From Hyphomicrobiales bacterium (GTDB taxonomy: Bacteria > Pseudomonadota > Alphaproteobacteria > Rhizobiales > Devosiaceae): a stretch of DNA of 49,626 nt. The position numbers and the translations under genes are program-made. Location of the stretch: assembly GCA_027066315.1 (NCBI GenBank), contig JAMONZ010000022.1, positions 1-49,626 of the forward strand. Direction: 5' to 3'. A model generated the notes under the pieces. The model ran no database searches and was not told the origin of the DNA. It worked only from the letters and a program-made list of their open reading frames with translations. Below, in pieces: positions 1,529 to 10,159 of the stretch. Every line of letters begins with the position of its first letter. Within the stretch, counting starts at the first letter, position 1.

Positions 1529-1918
1529 TTAAGCCAATGCACCAATAACTGCTTCAATTCGCTTTTTCATAGTTCCTGCATCAAACGGCTTAATAATATA
1601 ATTATTCACCCCAGCAGTGATAGCTTCTTTAACTTGCTCTTTATCCGAGCGACCTGTTGCCATAATGAAAGGCATTTTTTGAGTTTTTGGGTGTTTACGC
1701 AAAACTTTTAATAAAGTTAAACCATCAATATCAGGCATATTCCAATCTGATATGATTAAATCAAAATTATCTTTTTCAATTTTTCCAAGCGCATCACGTC
1801 CACTTTTGGCCTCTGTGATAGTCTTAAAGCCAAGCTGACCTAAGATATATTTACAAATGCCTCGCATAGATTGCTGGTCATCGACTATTAAAACATTAAT
1901 TGCACTGGCTTTTGGCAT
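1529..1918 (-). CDS. cheY: CheY-type response regulator (last gene of the che cluster)
   Basis: Single receiver domain of 129 residues with no output domain. The acidic pair is D13/D14, the phosphoacceptor is D58 (in ISDWNMP), the switch residues are T88 and Y107, and the conserved lysine is K110 in IKPF. In rhizobial clusters the CheY following cheB is the one that acts on the flagellar motor (CheY2), while the one next to cheA is a phosphate sink. By position and by the WNMPDIDG signature this copy fits the motor-acting CheY, but that is an inference. It lies 133 bases downstream of cheB, on the same strand, and is followed by a strong terminator. Confidence 0.9.
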   Translation of the reverse strand: MPKASAINVLIVDDQQSMRGICKYILGQLGFKTITEAKSGRDALGKIEKDNFDLIISDWNMPDIDGLTLLKVLRKHPKTQKMPFIMATGRSDKEQVKEAITAGVNNYIIKPFDAGTMKKRIEAVIGALA

Positions 1919-2051: not shown

Positions 2052-3086
2052 TTATAATTTTGCTAAAGCTGATGATATTCGTCCCGCAACCGCTTCAATT
2101 GGAGCTTGCTCAACAACTGCCCCAGTTTCAAAAGCAACTTTTGGCATGCCATAAACAAGGGCAGAAGTTTCTGATTGACCAATAGTGTGCGAACCAGTTT
2201 CACGCATTTGTTTTAAGCCAATTGCACCATCTTTTCCCATGCCTGTTAAAATTACCCCTATTGCCATTTTTCCTACAACTTTAGCGACAGAGCCAAATAA
2301 AACATCAACACTTGGCTTATGGCCAGAAACATCTTCTCCCTCTTCAATTCTACATTTTAACTGCCCTGAGCTTTTTTCAATTGTTAAATGCTGGCCGCCC
2401 TTTGCAATATAGGCAGTACCTTTTTCAATGAGCATTCTATCGCCTGCCTCTTGAACCTTGATGGCGCATAAATCATTAAGTCTGTTTGCAAACCGCTCTG
2501 TAAAACCTTTTGGCATATGTTGAGTGATTACAATTGGCGGGCAATCAACTGGCATAGAAACCAGCACCTCTCGTATTGCTTCAACTCCTCCAGTTGATGC
2601 GCCAATAGCAATAAGCGAGCCAGATGGACCTTTTGCTGTATGAATTGTAACTTTTGGTGTTGGTGCTCGCATTCCACGAGATCTAGCCGAGCTTTTTGCC
2701 GCTGCATGGACTTTTTTACATACATCAGCACCAAATTCATCAAGCCCGCTTGAAATATTAGCATTTGGTTTTGCAACAAAATCTACAGCACCAAGCTCAA
2801 GAGCGAGCAAGGTTTCTTCTGCACCTTTTTGAGTAAGGGTTGAAACCATCACCACAGGCATTGGCTTAAGGCGCATTAATTTATCCAAAAAATCCAAACC
2901 ATTCATATTTGGCATTTCGATATCAAGCGTTAAAACATCAGGTTTTAAATCTTTAATTTTTTGACGTGCATCAATTGGATCTTTTGCCGTGCCTACAACT
3001 TTTATACCGGCATCATTATTCAAAACTTTTGATAATATTGAGCGGATAAGGGCTGAATCATCAACCACAAGAACTTTAATACTCAT
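2052..3086 (-). CDS. cheB: Chemotaxis response regulator and protein-glutamate methylesterase/glutamine deamidase CheB
   Basis: CheB removes methyl groups from chemoreceptors (and deamidates them) when phosphorylated by CheA, giving adaptation. Its 344 residues comprise an N-terminal receiver domain (D9/D10, phosphoacceptor D55, K106) and a C-terminal methylesterase domain from about residue 155. The catalytic triad is visible: S164 in GASTGG, H190 in TQHMPKGF, and the aspartate of TGMGKDGAIG near residue 286. The start overlaps the cheR stop by four bases (ATGA), so CheR and CheB, which oppose each other, are translationally coupled. Confidence 0.96.
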   Translation of the reverse strand: MSIKVLVVDDSALIRSILSKVLNNDAGIKVVGTAKDPIDARQKIKDLKPDVLTLDIEMPNMNGLDFLDKLMRLKPMPVVMVSTLTQKGAEETLLALELGAVDFVAKPNANISSGLDEFGADVCKKVHAAAKSSARSRGMRAPTPKVTIHTAKGPSGSLIAIGASTGGVEAIREVLVSMPVDCPPIVITQHMPKGFTERFANRLNDLCAIKVQEAGDRMLIEKGTAYIAKGGQHLTIEKSSGQLKCRIEEGEDVSGHKPSVDVLFGSVAKVVGKMAIGVILTGMGKDGAIGLKQMRETGSHTIGQSETSALVYGMPKVAFETGAVVEQAPIEAVAGRISSALAKL

Positions 3087-3946
3087 GCTACTTGACTTTT
3101 TTCTACTGATTTAAGAGAGCTATATATGGTTTTTCCAACCAGTGAAAATTGGGTGCTATTTCGTCCAACATTTTCTGAATGACCAATATACATATAGCCA
3201 TCTGGTGCTAAAACTTCGCCAAGTTGGGCGAAGAGTTTATCTTGCACTGGTTTGTCAAAGTATATTGCAACATTACGACAAAAAATTGCATCAAATGGCC
3301 CTTTAATCGGCCATGGATCGAACAGATTTAGCGGCTTAAAAGTAATTGTTTGGCGCATTTCCTTTGGAATATGGATTGTGCCGTCCCCTTTACGCTCGAA
3401 AATCCTTGCTCGCTCAGGGCTTAACCCAGCCAACTCACTTTCAGGATAGATGCCCATTGCCGCTTTATTGACCACATCAGTATCAATATCTGATGCAAGA
3501 ATTTTGAAATCCCAACGTTTTAGCTCTGGGTATTTATTAATCAAACACATGGCAATTGTATATGGCTCTTGCCCCGTTGAGCAACCAGCCGACCAAATAC
3601 GCAAGCGTGGCTTGCCTGCCGCATTTGTGCGAGGTTTTTGTGCAATTATTTTCCCAATATGAGAGATTAAATGATCAAAATGATGATCTTCACGATAAAA
3701 TCTAGTTAGGTTTGTTGTGAGCGCATTAACAAAATCTTGTTTGTCTGTTTTAGTTGCTCTTGGGCTATCTAAAAATTCAAGATAGTTTGAGAAACTATTA
3801 ATTGAGAGCTTTCGCATTACTTTGGAAAGACGAGAAATTACCAATGTTCGTTTAGCATTGCTAAGAGAGATCCCTGCAACTTCTAACAGGCGACTTTTTA
3901 CATTTGAAAATTCTTTGTCACTTAAAGCAATATCATTATTTTCCAT
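3083..3946 (-). CDS. cheR: Chemotaxis protein methyltransferase CheR
   Basis: S-adenosylmethionine-dependent methyltransferase that methylates glutamates on chemoreceptors. It has 287 residues, the usual length: an N-terminal all-helical domain (residues about 10-75) and a Rossmann-like SAM-binding domain with WSAGCSTGQEPYTIAM (about residue 118) and FDAIFCRNVAIYF (about 218), ending in the GHSEN motif. Its stop codon overlaps the start of cheB. The receptor encoded immediately upstream (4017-5462) has no NWETF-like C-terminal pentapeptide, so CheR would act on it without that tether. Confidence 0.95.
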   Translation of the reverse strand: MENNDIALSDKEFSNVKSRLLEVAGISLSNAKRTLVISRLSKVMRKLSINSFSNYLEFLDSPRATKTDKQDFVNALTTNLTRFYREDHHFDHLISHIGKIIAQKPRTNAAGKPRLRIWSAGCSTGQEPYTIAMCLINKYPELKRWDFKILASDIDTDVVNKAAMGIYPESELAGLSPERARIFERKGDGTIHIPKEMRQTITFKPLNLFDPWPIKGPFDAIFCRNVAIYFDKPVQDKLFAQLGEVLAPDGYMYIGHSENVGRNSTQFSLVGKTIYSSLKSVEKSQVA

Positions 3947-4016: not shown

Positions 4017-5462
4017 TTATTTAGCTGTTTCTTGAACTATTTTATCTAACTCATCTCCCAGACTAGTCAGATTATTGTCACCTGATACCAAAGCACTAGT
4101 AATTATACCTGTTTCATTACTTATATTTTGTAAATATTTATCAAGATTTGATATTTTTATTTCTAACTCTTTTGTTTGATTAGCTGAAAGCTCGCTTTCA
4201 TTGCGCCCTTTTGTTGCTAAAGCGCGAATTTCTTTAGCTGATTTTGAGGTAGAGCCTGCTAAAGTGCGAACCTCTTGTGCAACAACTGCAAACCCAGCAC
4301 CGCTTTCGCCTGCTCTTGCTGCCTCGATGGCAGCATTTAATGCTAGTAAATTTGTGCGAAAAGATACATCTTCGATCAAGGCAACCATATTATCTATTTT
4401 TTCGTTGAGTTTATTCACATTCATTATTGAGAGGCAGGTTTTTTGTGCTGTATCACCGGCTTGCTGAGCTAGATCGCTTGCTTGTTTTCCAATATCTTCA
4501 ATTTTTTGCACTCCATCTCTAGAAAGAGTTACACTATTTTTTATTATAGAAATATCTTGTTTCGCAGTTAAAGAACTGGTTGAAATATTTGTTAAAACTT
4601 CTTTATGCCTATCTACTAAACAAGCAATTTCATCTAACTTTGATTTTAGGTTTGAGATATTATTCTCTTCAATTTCATGCTGTTTTGCATGTTTATCCAT
4701 TGCACTAAAAACTGCATTTACCTGATTATTCATTCCTGCATTAAGTAAAGGCTTTTGGTTTTTTTCTAAACCATCACTATCTATTTGGCCCGATACAATA
4801 TCATCAATTGCTAGCATTGATCGATCAAGCAACTCCATGCTAAAATTTAACTCATCAAGGGCTGGAAAAATTCTTGCTTCTTTATCACTAAATCTAAAAC
4901 TGGTATCACCCTCAGCAAAAGAAGAAGTGAAACGGGCAAGTTGATTGCGTCCTATAATTAAACCAGCTCGATGCAGTCCAATGATATAATTATTAGAATT
5001 AATTTGTGAAATTTTACAATCATATGGGCGAGAATTTATAATAATTCGCTGATCGATTAAGTCTTCACTGTTATGTAAAGAAAAATTATCGCCAAAAATT
5101 TCTTTAAGCGAGATGCCCGATTTTGCTTGTGCCTCTAAAGCCAAAAAACCATCACTAACAATAATGATTATCCCATCTTCGTCCACCATTAAAGCCGGAG
5201 TAAGCAAGGATTTTAGTGCCTGTTTATAGCTTACTTCATTTTGCAAAAGACTTGATGAATTTGCGACTTCTAGCTTTGATTGCTCTAGTAAATTATTAGT
5301 TTTTTTTATATTCAAAAAAATGGCAGCACCAATTATTAGCCAAAAAACACAAGCAAAAAAAATACCCAATGTTGAGCCTAAAAATTGAGCAGCAAAAAAA
5401 GCCACCCCAAGCGTTAAGGGAGTAGAAAAAATGGCTATTAATGCAAGAGGAAATTGGCGCAT
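4017..5462 (-). CDS. Methyl-accepting chemotaxis protein with two adjacent membrane helices and a PAS-like region
   Basis: Probable transmembrane chemoreceptor of 481 residues. Two hydrophobic helices (about residues 5-26 and 32-52) are separated by only a few residues, so there is no periplasmic ligand-binding domain. A PAS-like segment follows ([18 protein letters not shown] onward, about residues 85-165), then a signalling domain with the conserved hairpin tip [18 protein letters not shown] and [13 protein letters not shown] near residue 380. A cytoplasmic or membrane-state input (redox, energy) is a reasonable inference. The ATG at 5462 is preferred, with GGTGG seven bases upstream; the frame stays open to a TTG at 5507 that has no ribosome-binding site. 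The gene lies between cheD and cheR and is read with them. Confidence 0.88.
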
Positions 5463-5601
5463 TAGGAAACCACCAAAGAATTTGGTACGTAAAAAGACAT
5501 AAGCCAAATTAAATCTGAAATGGTTAACAAAACCTAAGCAAAGCTGAATGTTGTCAACTTTTTGGTAACTAATTCACATATTTTTTAAAAAATACTATCA
5601 A

Positions 5602-6192
5602 TTAGAATAATTCAATATCGTCATCAGCAGGCTTGACCACTTTTTGTTTGCCTGCAAAAGCCATTTCTTTATTGACGATATTTTGACCTGTAGCACTATC
5701 AAGCCGCTTAACACGAGCTCGACCAGTTGTTGGATCAAACATAACACGGCGAGCAAAAGTTCCGCCCATATCTTCTGATGTTATTTTATATCCCTCATCT
5801 TTGAGAAATTTATAAACAAAGGCAACATTGCTTGCCCCTACATCGGCAAGAGAAGAATTAATCTTACCACCACCAAATATTTTAAACTCAAGATTTTGTT
5901 TAATACCAGTGCCTTCTTTAAGCACCATATTTATCAATTCTTCCATGGCATAAGCACCATATCTAGCAGAAGAGCCAAATCTATCTTTGGCTGACCCTGA
6001 TTGCTCGGCCAATAAAAAATGGTTCATGCCGCCAACATTTGCCTCTACATCTCGCACACAAGCACCAATGCAAGAACCCAAAACAGTTGAAAATGTAACG
6101 TCCGTCTTATTAGAAACATGGCAGTCACCTTGATGGACTGTTGTTACAATAGATCTTGTGTTTTTTTTTGGTGTTGGTTGTGCTAATGCCAT
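5602..6192 (-). CDS. cheD: Chemoreceptor glutamine deamidase CheD
   Basis: CheD deamidates specific glutamines on chemoreceptors, preparing methylation sites. It has 196 residues with the catalytic cysteine in VLGSCIGACV (residue 41), the histidine in GGMNHFLLAE and the conserved FGGGKIN segment (about residue 107). The last residues, DDDIELF, form an acidic-hydrophobic tail. That tail resembles both the C-terminus of the small protein encoded divergently upstream (6367-6726) and, loosely, the CheY-binding EIDALL-type motif of FliM; this comparison is my own inference. The start codon is separated from the divergent gene by about 175 bases that must carry promoters in one or both directions. 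Confidence 0.94.
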   Translation of the reverse strand: MALAQPTPKKNTRSIVTTVHQGDCHVSNKTDVTFSTVLGSCIGACVRDVEANVGGMNHFLLAEQSGSAKDRFGSSARYGAYAMEELINMVLKEGTGIKQNLEFKIFGGGKINSSLADVGASNVAFVYKFLKDEGYKITSEDMGGTFARRVMFDPTTGRARVKRLDSATGQNIVNKEMAFAGKQKVVKPADDDIELF

Positions 6193-6366
6193 AAATACTC
6201 TCGTAAAAACTATTTAATCAATAAAATTACGCTATCTTATGAATATTAGTAAATTGCTAACCACAATCAAAATCTTATGAATATTTCTTCAAATGCAAAC
6301 CTTCACTTTAACTATTTGAGTTAGAGTGGAGCTTGGGAATAAATAAAAGTGAATCCAGGTTAGGAT

Positions 6367-6726
6367 ATGTTAATGTCATTAAAGCGACTAGCGACTGAGT
6401 TAGATGAAACTACCCGCCAAACGGCGGAGATGGTTGATGGAATTATTGAAGCTCTATCTATCTTGCAAAATCATAAAACTATTTGCGAAAATGCACGTAA
6501 AGAAGCGATGGATAAAATTGTTTTTGCGCTGCAAGCACAAGATAGAATTGAGCAACGAAACGCCAATATGGCAACTGCTGTTAGGAAAATGGTAGATAGC
6601 GATAGCGATATGGACAATCGCCAATTTGATAAAATATGGTCGCATTTAACGCTTGATGAACTGGCTGTGCCAAAAATGTCTGGAGTTGCTGGACGAGTGC
6701 AACACGGAGAAGTTGATCTGTTCTAA
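6367..6726 (+). CDS. cheT: Small helical protein with a CheZ/CheT-like DxxxQ phosphatase motif
   Basis: A 119-residue, almost wholly helical protein encoded against the direction of the surrounding che genes. The central helix carries QAQDRIEQR, with D59 and Q63 spaced exactly as in the DxxxQ motif of CheZ phosphatases (QDLTGQ in E. coli CheZ). From memory, S. meliloti CheT is a small protein near cheD with such a motif that speeds decay of CheY1-phosphate. The position beside cheD therefore supports a CheT/CheZ-like phosphatase, but overall similarity cannot be checked here. A stop codon lies two codons upstream of the ATG at 6367. A second ATG at 6373 has AGGA seven bases upstream and is equally likely. 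The protein ends in EVDLF. Confidence 0.7.
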   Translation: MLMSLKRLATELDETTRQTAEMVDGIIEALSILQNHKTICENARKEAMDKIVFALQAQDRIEQRNANMATAVRKMVDSDSDMDNRQFDKIWSHLTLDELAVPKMSGVAGRVQHGEVDLF

Positions 6727-6757
6727 AAAAGTTTACTAAGCTAGAATTGTTAAAAAT

Positions 6758-6792
6758 AAAAAAGGCACTTAAAAAAATTAAGTGCCTTTTTT
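6758..6792. terminator. Bidirectional rho-independent terminator between the cheT-like gene and cheW
   Basis: A long perfect stem, AAAAGGCACTTAA with TTAAGTGCCTTTT, around a five-A loop. It gives a T-run on both strands. It would end transcription from the plus-strand cheT-like gene and could attenuate or end the minus-strand transcript after cheW. If so, cheD and the genes after it would need their own promoter. Confidence 0.85.
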
Positions 6793-6809
6793 AATATATT
6801 TATCAAATT

Positions 6810-7298
6810 CTATTCTTCTAATTTTGCACCGTCAACAATTGCATGCAAATCTATTAAGCCCACCATACGAGAATCATGCGTGATTATTCCTCTAAGAAGC
6901 TCATTGTCACTAGAAGAATTTCCTTCTGGAACTGGGTGAACATCACTTTTCTTAACGGTCAAAATATCGCTAACAGCATCAACCAAAATTCCTACAAATT
7001 TTTCATCAACCGACATAACCACAACAACATGAGTTTTTGTAGGCTCTGTCTTGCCTTCACCAAAACGCGCTCGAAGATCAAAAATTGGAACTATAGTGCC
7101 ACGCAGATTTATAACACCTCGAACAAACTCACGAGTATTTGGCAAAGGTGTAGCCCCATTCCATGCCCTAATTTCTCTAACTGTAGTTATTTCAACAGAA
7201 TAGGTTTGCTCATCAATTGAAAATGCAATTAACTGCAAGCTATCAACTTCAGAAACCTCACCATCGCCAGCCTCATTACTTAAATGCATTGCTTCCAT
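6810..7298 (-). CDS. cheW: Chemotaxis coupling protein CheW
   Basis: Adaptor that links CheA to chemoreceptors in signalling arrays. It has 162 residues from the ATG at 7298, which has AAGGA seven bases upstream. The frame extends nine codons further to an ATG at 7325, but the ribosome-binding site supports the shorter form. The CheW fold is recognised by LIAFSIDEQTYSVEITTVREI, the NTREFVRGVINLRGTIVPIFDLR core and the VDAVSDIL segment. The N-terminal 20 residues are acidic and rich in Glu and Ser. It follows cheA by about 40 bases. Confidence 0.94.
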   Translation of the reverse strand: MEAMHLSNEAGDGEVSEVDSLQLIAFSIDEQTYSVEITTVREIRAWNGATPLPNTREFVRGVINLRGTIVPIFDLRARFGEGKTEPTKTHVVVVMSVDEKFVGILVDAVSDILTVKKSDVHPVPEGNSSSDNELLRGIITHDSRMVGLIDLHAIVDGAKLEE

Positions 7299-7337
7299 TT
7301 TATTTTCCTTTTTATAAATATTCATTAGTCATTATTA

Positions 7338-9470
7338 TTAGGCAACGTTGCGGTGTGATGGGCTAGGAGAGTTGCGCAACCCTTGCACATCAACAATTAG
7401 ACCAACCGAGCCATCACCCAAAATTGTGCCACCTGCAATTCCTTCAATTCTTTCAAAGTTTTCTTCTAAACTCTTAATTACAACTTGCTGCTGACCGATT
7501 ATTGAATCAACAATTAGAGCAAGTTTATTTGTGCCATCTGCTTCACAAAGCACAACAAATCTATCTTTATCATTAATATCATTTGGCAATTCAAAACGAT
7601 CCGCTAGATCAATTGAGTGAACATACTCACCACGCACCTGTAAAACTTTTGCACCTGTTGGTAATTTACCAAAATCAGCACGTGAGTTTTGAATTGTTTC
7701 AACAATTGAAGAAAGCGGAATAACATAAGGACAGCCGCCGACTTTTACCAACATTACATCAAGCACAGCCAAAGTTAGTGGCAATCTTAATGTCATGCGA
7801 GTGCCTTTACCCGGCCATGATTTTACAATTACTGCACCACCAATTTTATTGATATTTGATAAAACAACGTCCATTCCAACACCACGACCTGAAAGGTCTG
7901 AAACTTCCTCAACGGTTGAAAAACCTGGGGCAAATATTAAATTATCGATCTGGTCATCGCTTAATTGTTGATCCTCGCCAACAACGCCTTTATCACGTGC
8001 TAATTGCAACACACGCTCACGATTAATACCCGCTCCATCATCTTCAATAATTATTAGAATTGAGCCACCAGCTTGTTCGGCTGAAAGGCGAATTGTACCT
8101 GTTTCAGATTTACCAGCCTTTACTCTATTCTCAACAGATTCAATTCCGTGATCTGCTGAATTTCTAATCATATGAGTAAGTGGATCTGATAATTGCTCAA
8201 TAACTGTTTTGTCAATTTCAGTATTTTCACCAACAGTTTCAAGTTTGATCTTTTTACCTGTTTTTGTAGCTAACTCTCGCACCAAACGTGGCATACGAGA
8301 AAATACAGATTTTACTGGTTGAGCACGGATTGCCATCACGCTATCTTGTAGACCACGAGTTGTTGTTGCTAAAACTTCAAGCCCACGGATTAGCTCTTGA
8401 TATTGATGTTTTAGGTGGTCGTCCATTTGCTGGGTAAGCATCGACTGGGTAATAACCAGCTCGCCAACCATATTGACAACTCTATCGACTTTATCAAGAT
8501 CAACCCTAATTGATTGCACACCAGCTACTGGGGCAGTTTTTGATGGAGATTTACTAGTCTGCTCAGTGCCTTTTGCTGCCACTGTAGCTGCTGGCTTTTC
8601 TGCTTCTACTGGCTTAATTTCATCTGCAAGATCAGCAAATGATGGCAAATTTTCACTATCAAAATCTACATCATCTTGCTTTTCTTGAATAGGTTTTGCT
8701 TCAATTTTTGTTATTTCTAGATCACAATCCCCATCAACAAACTCAAATACTTCACGAATTAATTCTTCTTCAACGCTATCATCACTAAAAGAAATTTCCC
8801 ATGAGCAATATACCCCCATTGGCTCAAAATCAGGCAAGGTTGGTATATCAATTAAAACTGCCTTGACCTCAATATCAGACATTTCAGCCAATTCTCTTAA
8901 TAATAAAATTGGATCATTTGCAGAAATATAAAGCTCTCTATGAGGGACAAATTTAACTAACCACCCCTCACTTATGCCTTCATCATCACCCATTTCTTCA
9001 TCAAGATTAATCATGACTGGAGTAAAATCTATATCAAATTCTTCGTCTTCAACAGGCTCGCCTGTCTCTTCATCATCACCACTTGAAGCCTTGCAAAGAG
9101 AGATAAATTTTTCTTTTTCAACTGCACCATAATCAGAGGCAAGTTCTTCACCAACTTTTGCAGCTTCAACAAAATCAGCAATTATATCGTTTGATCTTAT
9201 ACAAAGAACGATCACTTCATTTGTCATTTCAATTTTGTCATTTCGAACAAAATCTAATAAAGTTTCAAACTCATGTGCAAAACCAACCAAGCCTGTAAAA
9301 CCAAAAGCACCCGCACCACCCTTAACCGAATGAATAGCACGAAAAACAGCATGCATGCGATCGGGGCTTTTATCACCCTCTTCAATTGCTGTGAATTGCT
9401 CTTCTAATTCTATAAGTAGTTCAGAACATTCATCAAAAAATGTAGCTTTAAATTCGTCAAGTTCAGACAT
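7338..9470 (-). CDS. cheA: Chemotaxis histidine kinase CheA
   Basis: Central kinase of the chemotaxis pathway; receptor-controlled autophosphorylation feeds CheY, CheY2 and CheB. It has 710 residues. The HPt domain (1-105) carries H47 in RAIHSVKGGAGAFG. An acidic linker and a P2-like docking domain follow (about 150-270, with WLVKFVPHRELY and LLRELAEM), then a Ser/Pro/Ala/Lys linker and the dimerisation domain (about 320-375). The ATPase domain shows the N box HMIRNSADHGIE, G1 EDDGAGI, the F box and G2 GRGVGMDVV. The C-terminal CheW-like domain covers about 570-705. All key residues are present. Confidence 0.97.
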   Translation of the reverse strand: MSELDEFKATFFDECSELLIELEEQFTAIEEGDKSPDRMHAVFRAIHSVKGGAGAFGFTGLVGFAHEFETLLDFVRNDKIEMTNEVIVLCIRSNDIIADFVEAAKVGEELASDYGAVEKEKFISLCKASSGDDEETGEPVEDEEFDIDFTPVMINLDEEMGDDEGISEGWLVKFVPHRELYISANDPILLLRELAEMSDIEVKAVLIDIPTLPDFEPMGVYCSWEISFSDDSVEEELIREVFEFVDGDCDLEITKIEAKPIQEKQDDVDFDSENLPSFADLADEIKPVEAEKPAATVAAKGTEQTSKSPSKTAPVAGVQSIRVDLDKVDRVVNMVGELVITQSMLTQQMDDHLKHQYQELIRGLEVLATTTRGLQDSVMAIRAQPVKSVFSRMPRLVRELATKTGKKIKLETVGENTEIDKTVIEQLSDPLTHMIRNSADHGIESVENRVKAGKSETGTIRLSAEQAGGSILIIIEDDGAGINRERVLQLARDKGVVGEDQQLSDDQIDNLIFAPGFSTVEEVSDLSGRGVGMDVVLSNINKIGGAVIVKSWPGKGTRMTLRLPLTLAVLDVMLVKVGGCPYVIPLSSIVETIQNSRADFGKLPTGAKVLQVRGEYVHSIDLADRFELPNDINDKDRFVVLCEADGTNKLALIVDSIIGQQQVVIKSLEENFERIEGIAGGTILGDGSVGLIVDVQGLRNSPSPSHRNVA

Positions 9471-9499: not shown

Positions 9500-9859
9500 T
9501 TAATGAACAACTCGGTTAATAACCGAGATTAATTTTTCGGGATCAAATGGCTTAACAATCCAGCCTGTTCCACCAGCAGCTCGCCCTTGATCGCGTTTTT
9601 CACGAGAGCTTTCTGTAGTTAGAATAAGAATGGGAAGGCTTTGATATTTACCTGATGAGCGAACATTTTTGATAAATTCAATGCCGTCCATAACTGGCAT
9701 ATTTATATCTGTTATCACCACATCAAAACTCTCAGTTTTTAGCTTATCTAGGCCTTGCTGTCCGTCTTCTGCTTGAATTACCTCAAAGCCAGCACCGCTA
9801 AGCGTGTGTTGGAGCATTGAAAGCATCGTGCGAGAATCATCTACTGTTAGAATACGCAT
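9500..9859 (-). CDS. cheY: CheY-type response regulator (adjacent to cheA)
   Basis: Stand-alone receiver domain of 119 residues. It has D7/D8, phosphoacceptor D51 (TDINMP), T81/T82, an aromatic W100 at the switch position and K103 in VKPF. In S. meliloti the CheY encoded between cheS and cheA is CheY1, a phosphate sink that drains phosphate from motor-acting CheY2; the same order here makes that role likely. The two CheY proteins in this window are clearly different sequences, not a recent duplication. The gene is 29 bases upstream of cheA and 9 bases downstream of the STAS gene. Confidence 0.93.
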   Translation of the reverse strand: MRILTVDDSRTMLSMLQHTLSGAGFEVIQAEDGQQGLDKLKTESFDVVITDINMPVMDGIEFIKNVRSSGKYQSLPILILTTESSREKRDQGRAAGGTGWIVKPFDPEKLISVINRVVH

Positions 9860-9868
9860 TATATATAT

Positions 9869-10159
9869 CTATCCTTTTAATAGCGGGGTAAAGCTGTCTT
9901 TAAGTCCTAGCCTATCAATTGCACCAAGCATTTGGGGGCTAGCGTTTAGAACCTCAAAAGAAGTATTATTTAATTCTGCAGATCGAGCGGCACTTAGCAG
10001 CATCAACAAAGCATTTGTTGCTACTCGCTCTACTTTTTCACTATTTATTTGAACCGAGCCAAGCTCTAAAGCCTCAAGAAGATTATCTCGAATTACATCA
10101 AGTGTATCCAAATCTACAATTGCAGGCAGTTCTAAATCTTGTAATTTACTCTCAGCCAT
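9869..10159 (-). CDS. cheS: STAS-domain protein, CheS-like, first gene of the che operon
   Basis: A 96-residue protein with STAS-type features: VDLDTLDVIRDNLLEAL, a central VERVATNALLMLLSAARSA (the usual DSSGLALL helix region, here without the phosphorylatable Ser/Asp-Ser) and a FEVLNASPQM strand-helix. From memory, S. meliloti CheS (97 residues, encoded just before cheY1) binds CheA and speeds dephosphorylation of CheY1; length and position match. The ATG at 10159 is chosen; the frame remains open to a TTG at 10180. GAGGA lies 14 bases upstream of the ATG, a long spacing, so the start is uncertain. The che operon promoter should lie in 10160-10283. Confidence 0.8.
   Translation of the reverse strand: MAESKLQDLELPAIVDLDTLDVIRDNLLEALELGSVQINSEKVERVATNALLMLLSAARSAELNNTSFEVLNASPQMLGAIDRLGLKDSFTPLLKG

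Follow-up and report, generated by a model that had tools for sequence, protein, structure and literature searches.

We analysed a 49,626-nucleotide stretch of Devosiaceae DNA (the window), in which a plus-strand open reading frame at 6367-6726 encodes a 119-amino-acid protein containing QAQDRIEQR, with D59 and Q63 as its candidate catalytic residues. This cheT-like gene lies within a chemotaxis cluster whose other members all occupy the minus strand, namely cheS, cheY1, cheA and cheW on one side and cheD, an MCP-like receptor gene, cheR, cheB and cheY2 on the other (Table 1). An earlier account made from the letters alone (the sequence-only reading) had described the gene as reversed within the che cluster and closed by its own bidirectional terminator, in the company of a CheS-like gene and two CheYs. 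These local claims were borne out by the plus-strand gene amid minus-strand neighbours, by a terminator-like hairpin with A/T runs on both flanks, and by the recovery of a STAS protein and two cheY genes.

The start codon is probably the second, in-frame ATG at 6373 and not that at 6367, since an AGGA (6362-6365) precedes it by 7 bases and orthologue N-termini read MSL; the product would then comprise 117 amino acids, with the candidate D and Q at residues 57 and 61. Relative to the closest orthologue, differences fall 24/8/49 across the three codon positions and dN/dS is ~0.09. Judged on this substitution pattern, the cheT-like frame is clearly real and under strong purifying selection.

Table 1 Features of the che cluster and of the cheT-like gene, in window coordinates.
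Feature	Position	Strand	Evidence
cheY2	1529..1918	-	PF00072 E=8.1e-31
cheB	2052..3086	-	PF01339 E=4.2e-62
cheR	3083..3946	-	PF01739 E=1e-61
MCP-like receptor gene, without CheR pentapeptide tail	4017..5507	-	PF00015 E=8.8e-30
cheD, divergent from cheT; protein C-terminus DDDIELF	5602..6192	-	PF03975 E=1.9e-25
Palindromic box TTAGTAAATTGCTAA(CCA) with CtrA-like TTAA-N7-TTAA spacing, in the cheD/cheT divergent promoter region	6246..6260	+	conserved in 68/81 intergenic regions
cheT-like gene	6367..6726	+	119 aa (117 aa from 6373); QxxDxxxQ motif; C-terminal GEVDLF tail
Codons for QAQDRIEQR (Q56-R64), with predicted catalytic D59/Q63 on helix 2	6532..6558	+	D/Q in 81/81 loci; aligned with CheT D63/Q67 and CheZ D149/Q153
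Codons for C-terminal tail GEVDLF, proposed to dock, following a linker of low confidence	6706..6723	+	F119 invariant, L118 at least 90%
Hairpin resembling a bidirectional terminator, with cheT and cheW converging on it	6757..6793	.	16 pairs, A/T runs both sides
cheW, convergent with cheT	6810..7325	-	PF01584 E=2.6e-36
cheA	7338..9470	-	ORF translation; H-kinase_dim match at 8328-8516 on same contig
cheY1	9500..9859	-	PF00072 E=9.3e-28
cheS-like STAS-domain gene, upstream of cheY1-cheA	9869..10159	-	PF13466 E=1.7e-10

Of 136 Devosiaceae genomes, 125 carry a homologue of the cheT-like gene; among the 119 that are near-complete, 114 do. Devosia, Pelagibacterium and Maritalea are among the relatives. 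In every one of the 81 loci compared from these relatives, cheT stands head-to-head with cheD, against the direction of the che operons, and wherever cheW lies within reach (64 loci) it too is transcribed the other way from cheT. The commonest order across the 81 loci is cheY2- cheB- cheR- cheD- cheT+ cheW- cheA- cheY1- cheS-. Because the inversion recurs in 81/81 loci, it is an old and fixed feature of Devosiaceae and not the peculiarity of a single genome.

The gap between cheD and cheT measures 152-314 bp across Devosiaceae loci (median 166), and the divergent promoter region here spans roughly 180 bp. A palindromic TTAG-N7-CTAACCA box lies 86-106 bp before the cheT match in 68 of the 81 relatives, against a background of just 4 copies in the remaining 1.4 Mb of sequence. 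Its spacing equals that of the CtrA consensus, TTAA-N7-TTAA (PMC4287350, PMC9437464), and CtrA binding at this position is putative. A single box conserved between two divergent genes suggests that cheT and cheD are co-regulated, which makes fully separate dosing of cheT less likely. The proposal that the dose of CheT is set apart from that of the other Che proteins thus survives as possible, but co-regulation with cheD from their common promoter region is at least as likely.

An alignment of 30 Devosiaceae sequences showed Q56, Q58, D59, R60, I61, Q63 and R64 to be invariant, and L8, A9, E11, L12, E14, R17 and Q18 of the N-terminal helix to be as invariant as DxxxQ. The wider pattern Q.QD...Q was kept in 80 of 81 loci, the exception (L077) reading GRDRIEQR, and D and Q themselves in all 81; a failure of these two residues to persist among orthologues had been named beforehand as grounds for abandoning the phosphatase proposal. 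Shuffled copies of the protein contained bare DxxxQ in 49% of cases and QxxDxxxQ in 3%, and we therefore rejected the DxxxQ spacing alone as evidence. Of the original observation that D59 and Q63 match the catalytic spacing of CheZ, the motif and its invariance stand, but the spacing by itself is at chance level. The evidence accordingly lies in the invariance, in the helical hairpin of the predicted structure and in the similarity between the profile of this family and that of rhizobial CheT.

For that match we used 26 rhizobial-type CheTs, chosen by context (genes directly downstream of cheD in cheB-cheY2-cheD-x clusters) and by description, a set that is separate from S. meliloti CheT itself; within it, Q60, D63 and Q67 are invariant. 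Comparison of the Devosiaceae profile with this set by hhalign gave Prob 93, E 3.3e-7 and a score of 44. Block shuffling, repeated 40 times, yielded no score above 22, and the profile in reverse scored 13. D59 aligned with D63, Q63 with Q67, and the terminal [DE][LF]F tails with each other. A class-wide genome scan with the rhizobial CheT profile did not reach the source genome at E<=1e-3, and a class-wide blind scan with the Devosiaceae CheT-like profile reached no rhizobial CheT, while recovering a true CheZ at E 4.6e-4. Since neither single-family profile finds the other family (E<=1e-3), the homology rests on profile-profile comparison. Read in this way, the protein is best filed as a diverged CheT related to rhizobial CheT, with D and Q in register, a likeness that the sequence-only reading had proposed.

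Similarity to CheZ was weaker. Against Devosiaceae CheZ, hhalign gave Prob 17, E 1.5e-3 and a score of 26.7 (best shuffle 22.4) over residues 7-68, with D59/Q63 in register with D149/Q153; the Devosiaceae CheZ profile in turn finds E. coli CheZ (1kmi) at 2.7e-10, in an alignment that covers the catalytic helix and brings the motifs into line. A direct comparison of the rhizobial CheT and CheZ profiles was not significant (score 15, below shuffles), so that the link to CheZ is better made via the Devosiaceae form. Searches of Pfam, NCBIfam and PDB sequences with the protein or its profile yielded chance matches only. Namely, PF04344 (CheZ) did not match the protein at E<=1 and NCBIfam offered no CheZ match; no CheC, CheX or FliY family matched in Pfam or NCBIfam, and the predicted model contains no strands, the CheC/CheX fold being alpha/beta with ExxN.

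Structure prediction, which had been suggested as a check, gave a helical hairpin. AlphaFold placed helices 5-34 and 40-78 in a hairpin (mean pLDDT 75) with D59 and Q63 on the second long helix, followed by two short helices and a low-confidence tail (residues 104-119, pLDDT <50). The model of a rhizobial CheT has a similar layout, with D and Q in a long helix at 53-80. Searches against the PDB, by Foldseek and VIA-align for the Devosiaceae protein and by VIA-align for the rhizobial one, listed generic helical hairpins and not CheZ, a result that is uninformative rather than negative in both cases.

At the C-terminus, every one of the 81 Devosiaceae CheTs carries [DE][LF]F behind a variable, low-confidence linker. 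The neighbouring CheD (5602-6192) shares a near-invariant tail of this kind, [IV]E[LF]F (loci L046-L125 and L134-L163): it reads IELF or IEMF in 80 of 81 Devosiaceae relatives, and [IVL]E[LF]F ends CheD in 33 of 35 rhizobial-type loci. The CheZ of the source genome ends in SAIDALF, which resembles the CheT/CheD tail. In E. coli, CheZ binds CheY through its C-terminal helix (PMC7750401), whereas the consensus of the CheR-binding pentapeptide carries W in the second position and F in the fifth (PMC7390727); Trp occupies position 2 in 0 of 81 CheT tails. From these sequences, the tail of CheT and CheD may serve both proteins for docking on CheY or CheR. Because similar tails end CheT, CheD and CheZ, and because the C-terminal helix of E. 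coli CheZ binds CheY, the analogy would most simply make it a CheY-docking peptide common to proteins acting on the pathway.

The presence of CheZ overturns the premise that this organism does without one. A genuine CheZ, over the Pfam cut-off, is encoded in the source genome directly behind a third cheY (cheY3). This cheY3-cheZ pair lies outside the window as an orphan beside a ribF-like gene (L178:2879-3929, contig C2), and the neighbourhood is repeated in one relative of the same genus. CheZ was present in all five sampled members of the genus (the source genome and four genus-mates) and in 17 of 136 Devosiaceae genomes, all 17 of which also carry CheT. In the rhizobial family, a CheT match occurred in 36 of 101 genomes, and none of the 101 sampled had a CheZ over the cut-off. 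Since CheT and CheZ occur together in 17 genomes, the two are not mutually exclusive, and CheT has not simply taken the place of a CheZ that was lost. A second che operon of the source genome (L181:6202-12986, contig C21) encodes, with names assigned by sequence reading, a ChpT-like protein, a 904-amino-acid CheA, CheW, CheY, CheB and CheR. The CheYs are thus distributed as two in the cheT cluster, a third with CheZ and a fourth in the second che operon.

Taken with the analogy to known phosphatases, the sequence evidence makes it likely that the cheT-like gene encodes a diverged CheT, that is, a small CheZ-like auxiliary phosphatase for a CheY of its che cluster. In CheZ, the Gln of DxxxQ orients a water molecule for attack on the CheY acyl-phosphate and the Asp contacts CheY. 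In the modelled protein, the second long helix of a two-helix hairpin would display D59 and Q63. If it works as CheZ does, Q63 would place the water that attacks the CheY acyl-phosphate, D59 would contact CheY, and GEVDLF, at the end of its flexible linker, would probably anchor the protein to CheY in the manner of the CheZ C-terminal peptide. We infer by analogy that the protein is catalytic, and likewise which CheY would be its substrate, that its tail docks and that it might bind CheR. The closest precedent is S. meliloti CheT, which has a DXXXQ motif and an AlphaFold model resembling CheZ (Agbekudzi et al. 2024, doi 10.1111/mmi.15303, as reported in PMC12654446). According to PMC12654446, it binds CheR and, of the two CheYs, speeds the dephosphorylation of one only. 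The CheZ already encoded in the source genome speaks against the phosphatase reading, since a second such enzyme might be superfluous or no longer catalytic.

The protein might instead be an adaptor and not an enzyme, binding mainly CheR (or CheA or CheD) through its hairpin and pentapeptide-like tail, adjusting adaptation, and keeping DxxxQ for binding. We consider this unlikely. GEVDLF does resemble the acidic CheR-binding pattern, in which position 2 is hydrophobic and position 5 is F, but a Trp normally fills position 2 (PMC7390727), and none of the 81 tails has one there. None of the five MCPs found in the source genome (L164-L168) ends in the CheR pentapeptide xWxxF, so a CheT or CheD tail could be the sole tether. 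The adaptor would also suit an N-terminal helix as invariant as DxxxQ; against it, D and Q are both invariant and set within CheZ-like flanks (A..xQDxxxQR). The S. meliloti homologue bears on both sides, being credited in PMC12654446 with CheR binding and with catalysis.

A further alternative, that the cluster encodes here a small helical protein with some unrelated function and a coincidental DxxxQ, is improbable. The frequency of the motif in shuffled copies would allow for it, as would the commonness of helical hairpins, of which the PDB fold search returned generic ones only. The reading is nevertheless largely refuted already by the invariance of D and Q in 81/81 loci and by a CheT homology that aligns D, Q and the tail at a score far above shuffles, and the gene adjoins cheD in all relatives. 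Hardly credible is a shortened CheZ, a true family member minus its N-terminal and linker parts: despite weak in-register CheZ similarity over residues 7-68, PF04344 does not match, CheT is matched far better (score 44 versus 27), a separate true CheZ stands alongside in 17 Devosiaceae genomes, and the Q at -3 from the Asp is absent from Devosiaceae CheZs (SFQDLTGQ or a close variant).

A CheT-like auxiliary phosphatase at this locus would extend CheT-type signal termination from Rhizobiaceae to Devosiaceae. The more surprising points are its coexistence with CheZ, the fixed inversion behind a conserved promoter box and the terminal peptide held in common with CheD. The coexistence raises the question of how two DxxxQ phosphatases and three CheYs are kept apart, to which the common CheT/CheD tail suggests a concrete physical answer. 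In its fullest form, this answer would have CheT, CheD and CheZ of these alphaproteobacteria share one C-terminal docking peptide, [IVA][DE][LF]F-COOH, with CheT and CheD competing for the same CheY (or CheR) surface. We hold this proposal to be conceivable and rather doubtful; if true, it would couple receptor adaptation directly to signal termination in cells with both a CheT and a CheZ, each serving its own CheY.

Compared with known systems, the Devosiaceae protein stands closest to S. meliloti CheT and its Rhizobiaceae orthologues, which are likewise small (~120 amino acids), helical, encoded in che clusters and adjacent to cheD. It shares with rhizobial CheT the QxxDxxxQ on the second helix, a tail of acidic residue, hydrophobic residue and F, and significant profile similarity. 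Rhizobial cheT, however, is co-directional at the 3' end of cheB-cheY2-cheD-cheT, whereas the Devosiaceae gene is divergent from cheD and opposite to the che operons. The motif flanks also differ (QxQDRIEQR in Devosiaceae, LQGIDLAVQK in rhizobial CheT), and Devosiaceae cheT coexists with a true CheZ, which in the rhizobial family was over the cut-off in 0 of 101 sampled genomes. Like CheZ (PF04344; E. coli 1KMI and Azorhizobium caulinodans CheZ), the protein has DxxxQ on the second helix of its predicted hairpin, with QD...QR in register, and a C-terminal peptide after a flexible linker. It is separate from the CheZ of its own genome and departs from that family in having no Pfam match, about half the length, a Q at -3 from the Asp and no TGQR signature; Devosiaceae CheZs, reading SFQDLTGQ or a close variant, lack this CheT-type QxxDxxxQ. 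The Devosiaceae CheT-like profile also recovered, in other families of Alphaproteobacteria, proteins in which an MCP signalling domain is fused to a C-terminal QFQDRxxQR module (L042:733-1911, L043:619-1869 and L045:586-1905). These share the QxxDxxxQ arrangement and end in DDIELF or DDNIELF, but differ from the cheT-like protein in that the module is joined to a receptor signalling domain and lies in the vicinity of STAS and other che genes. On their sequences, they are possible receptor-phosphatase fusions.
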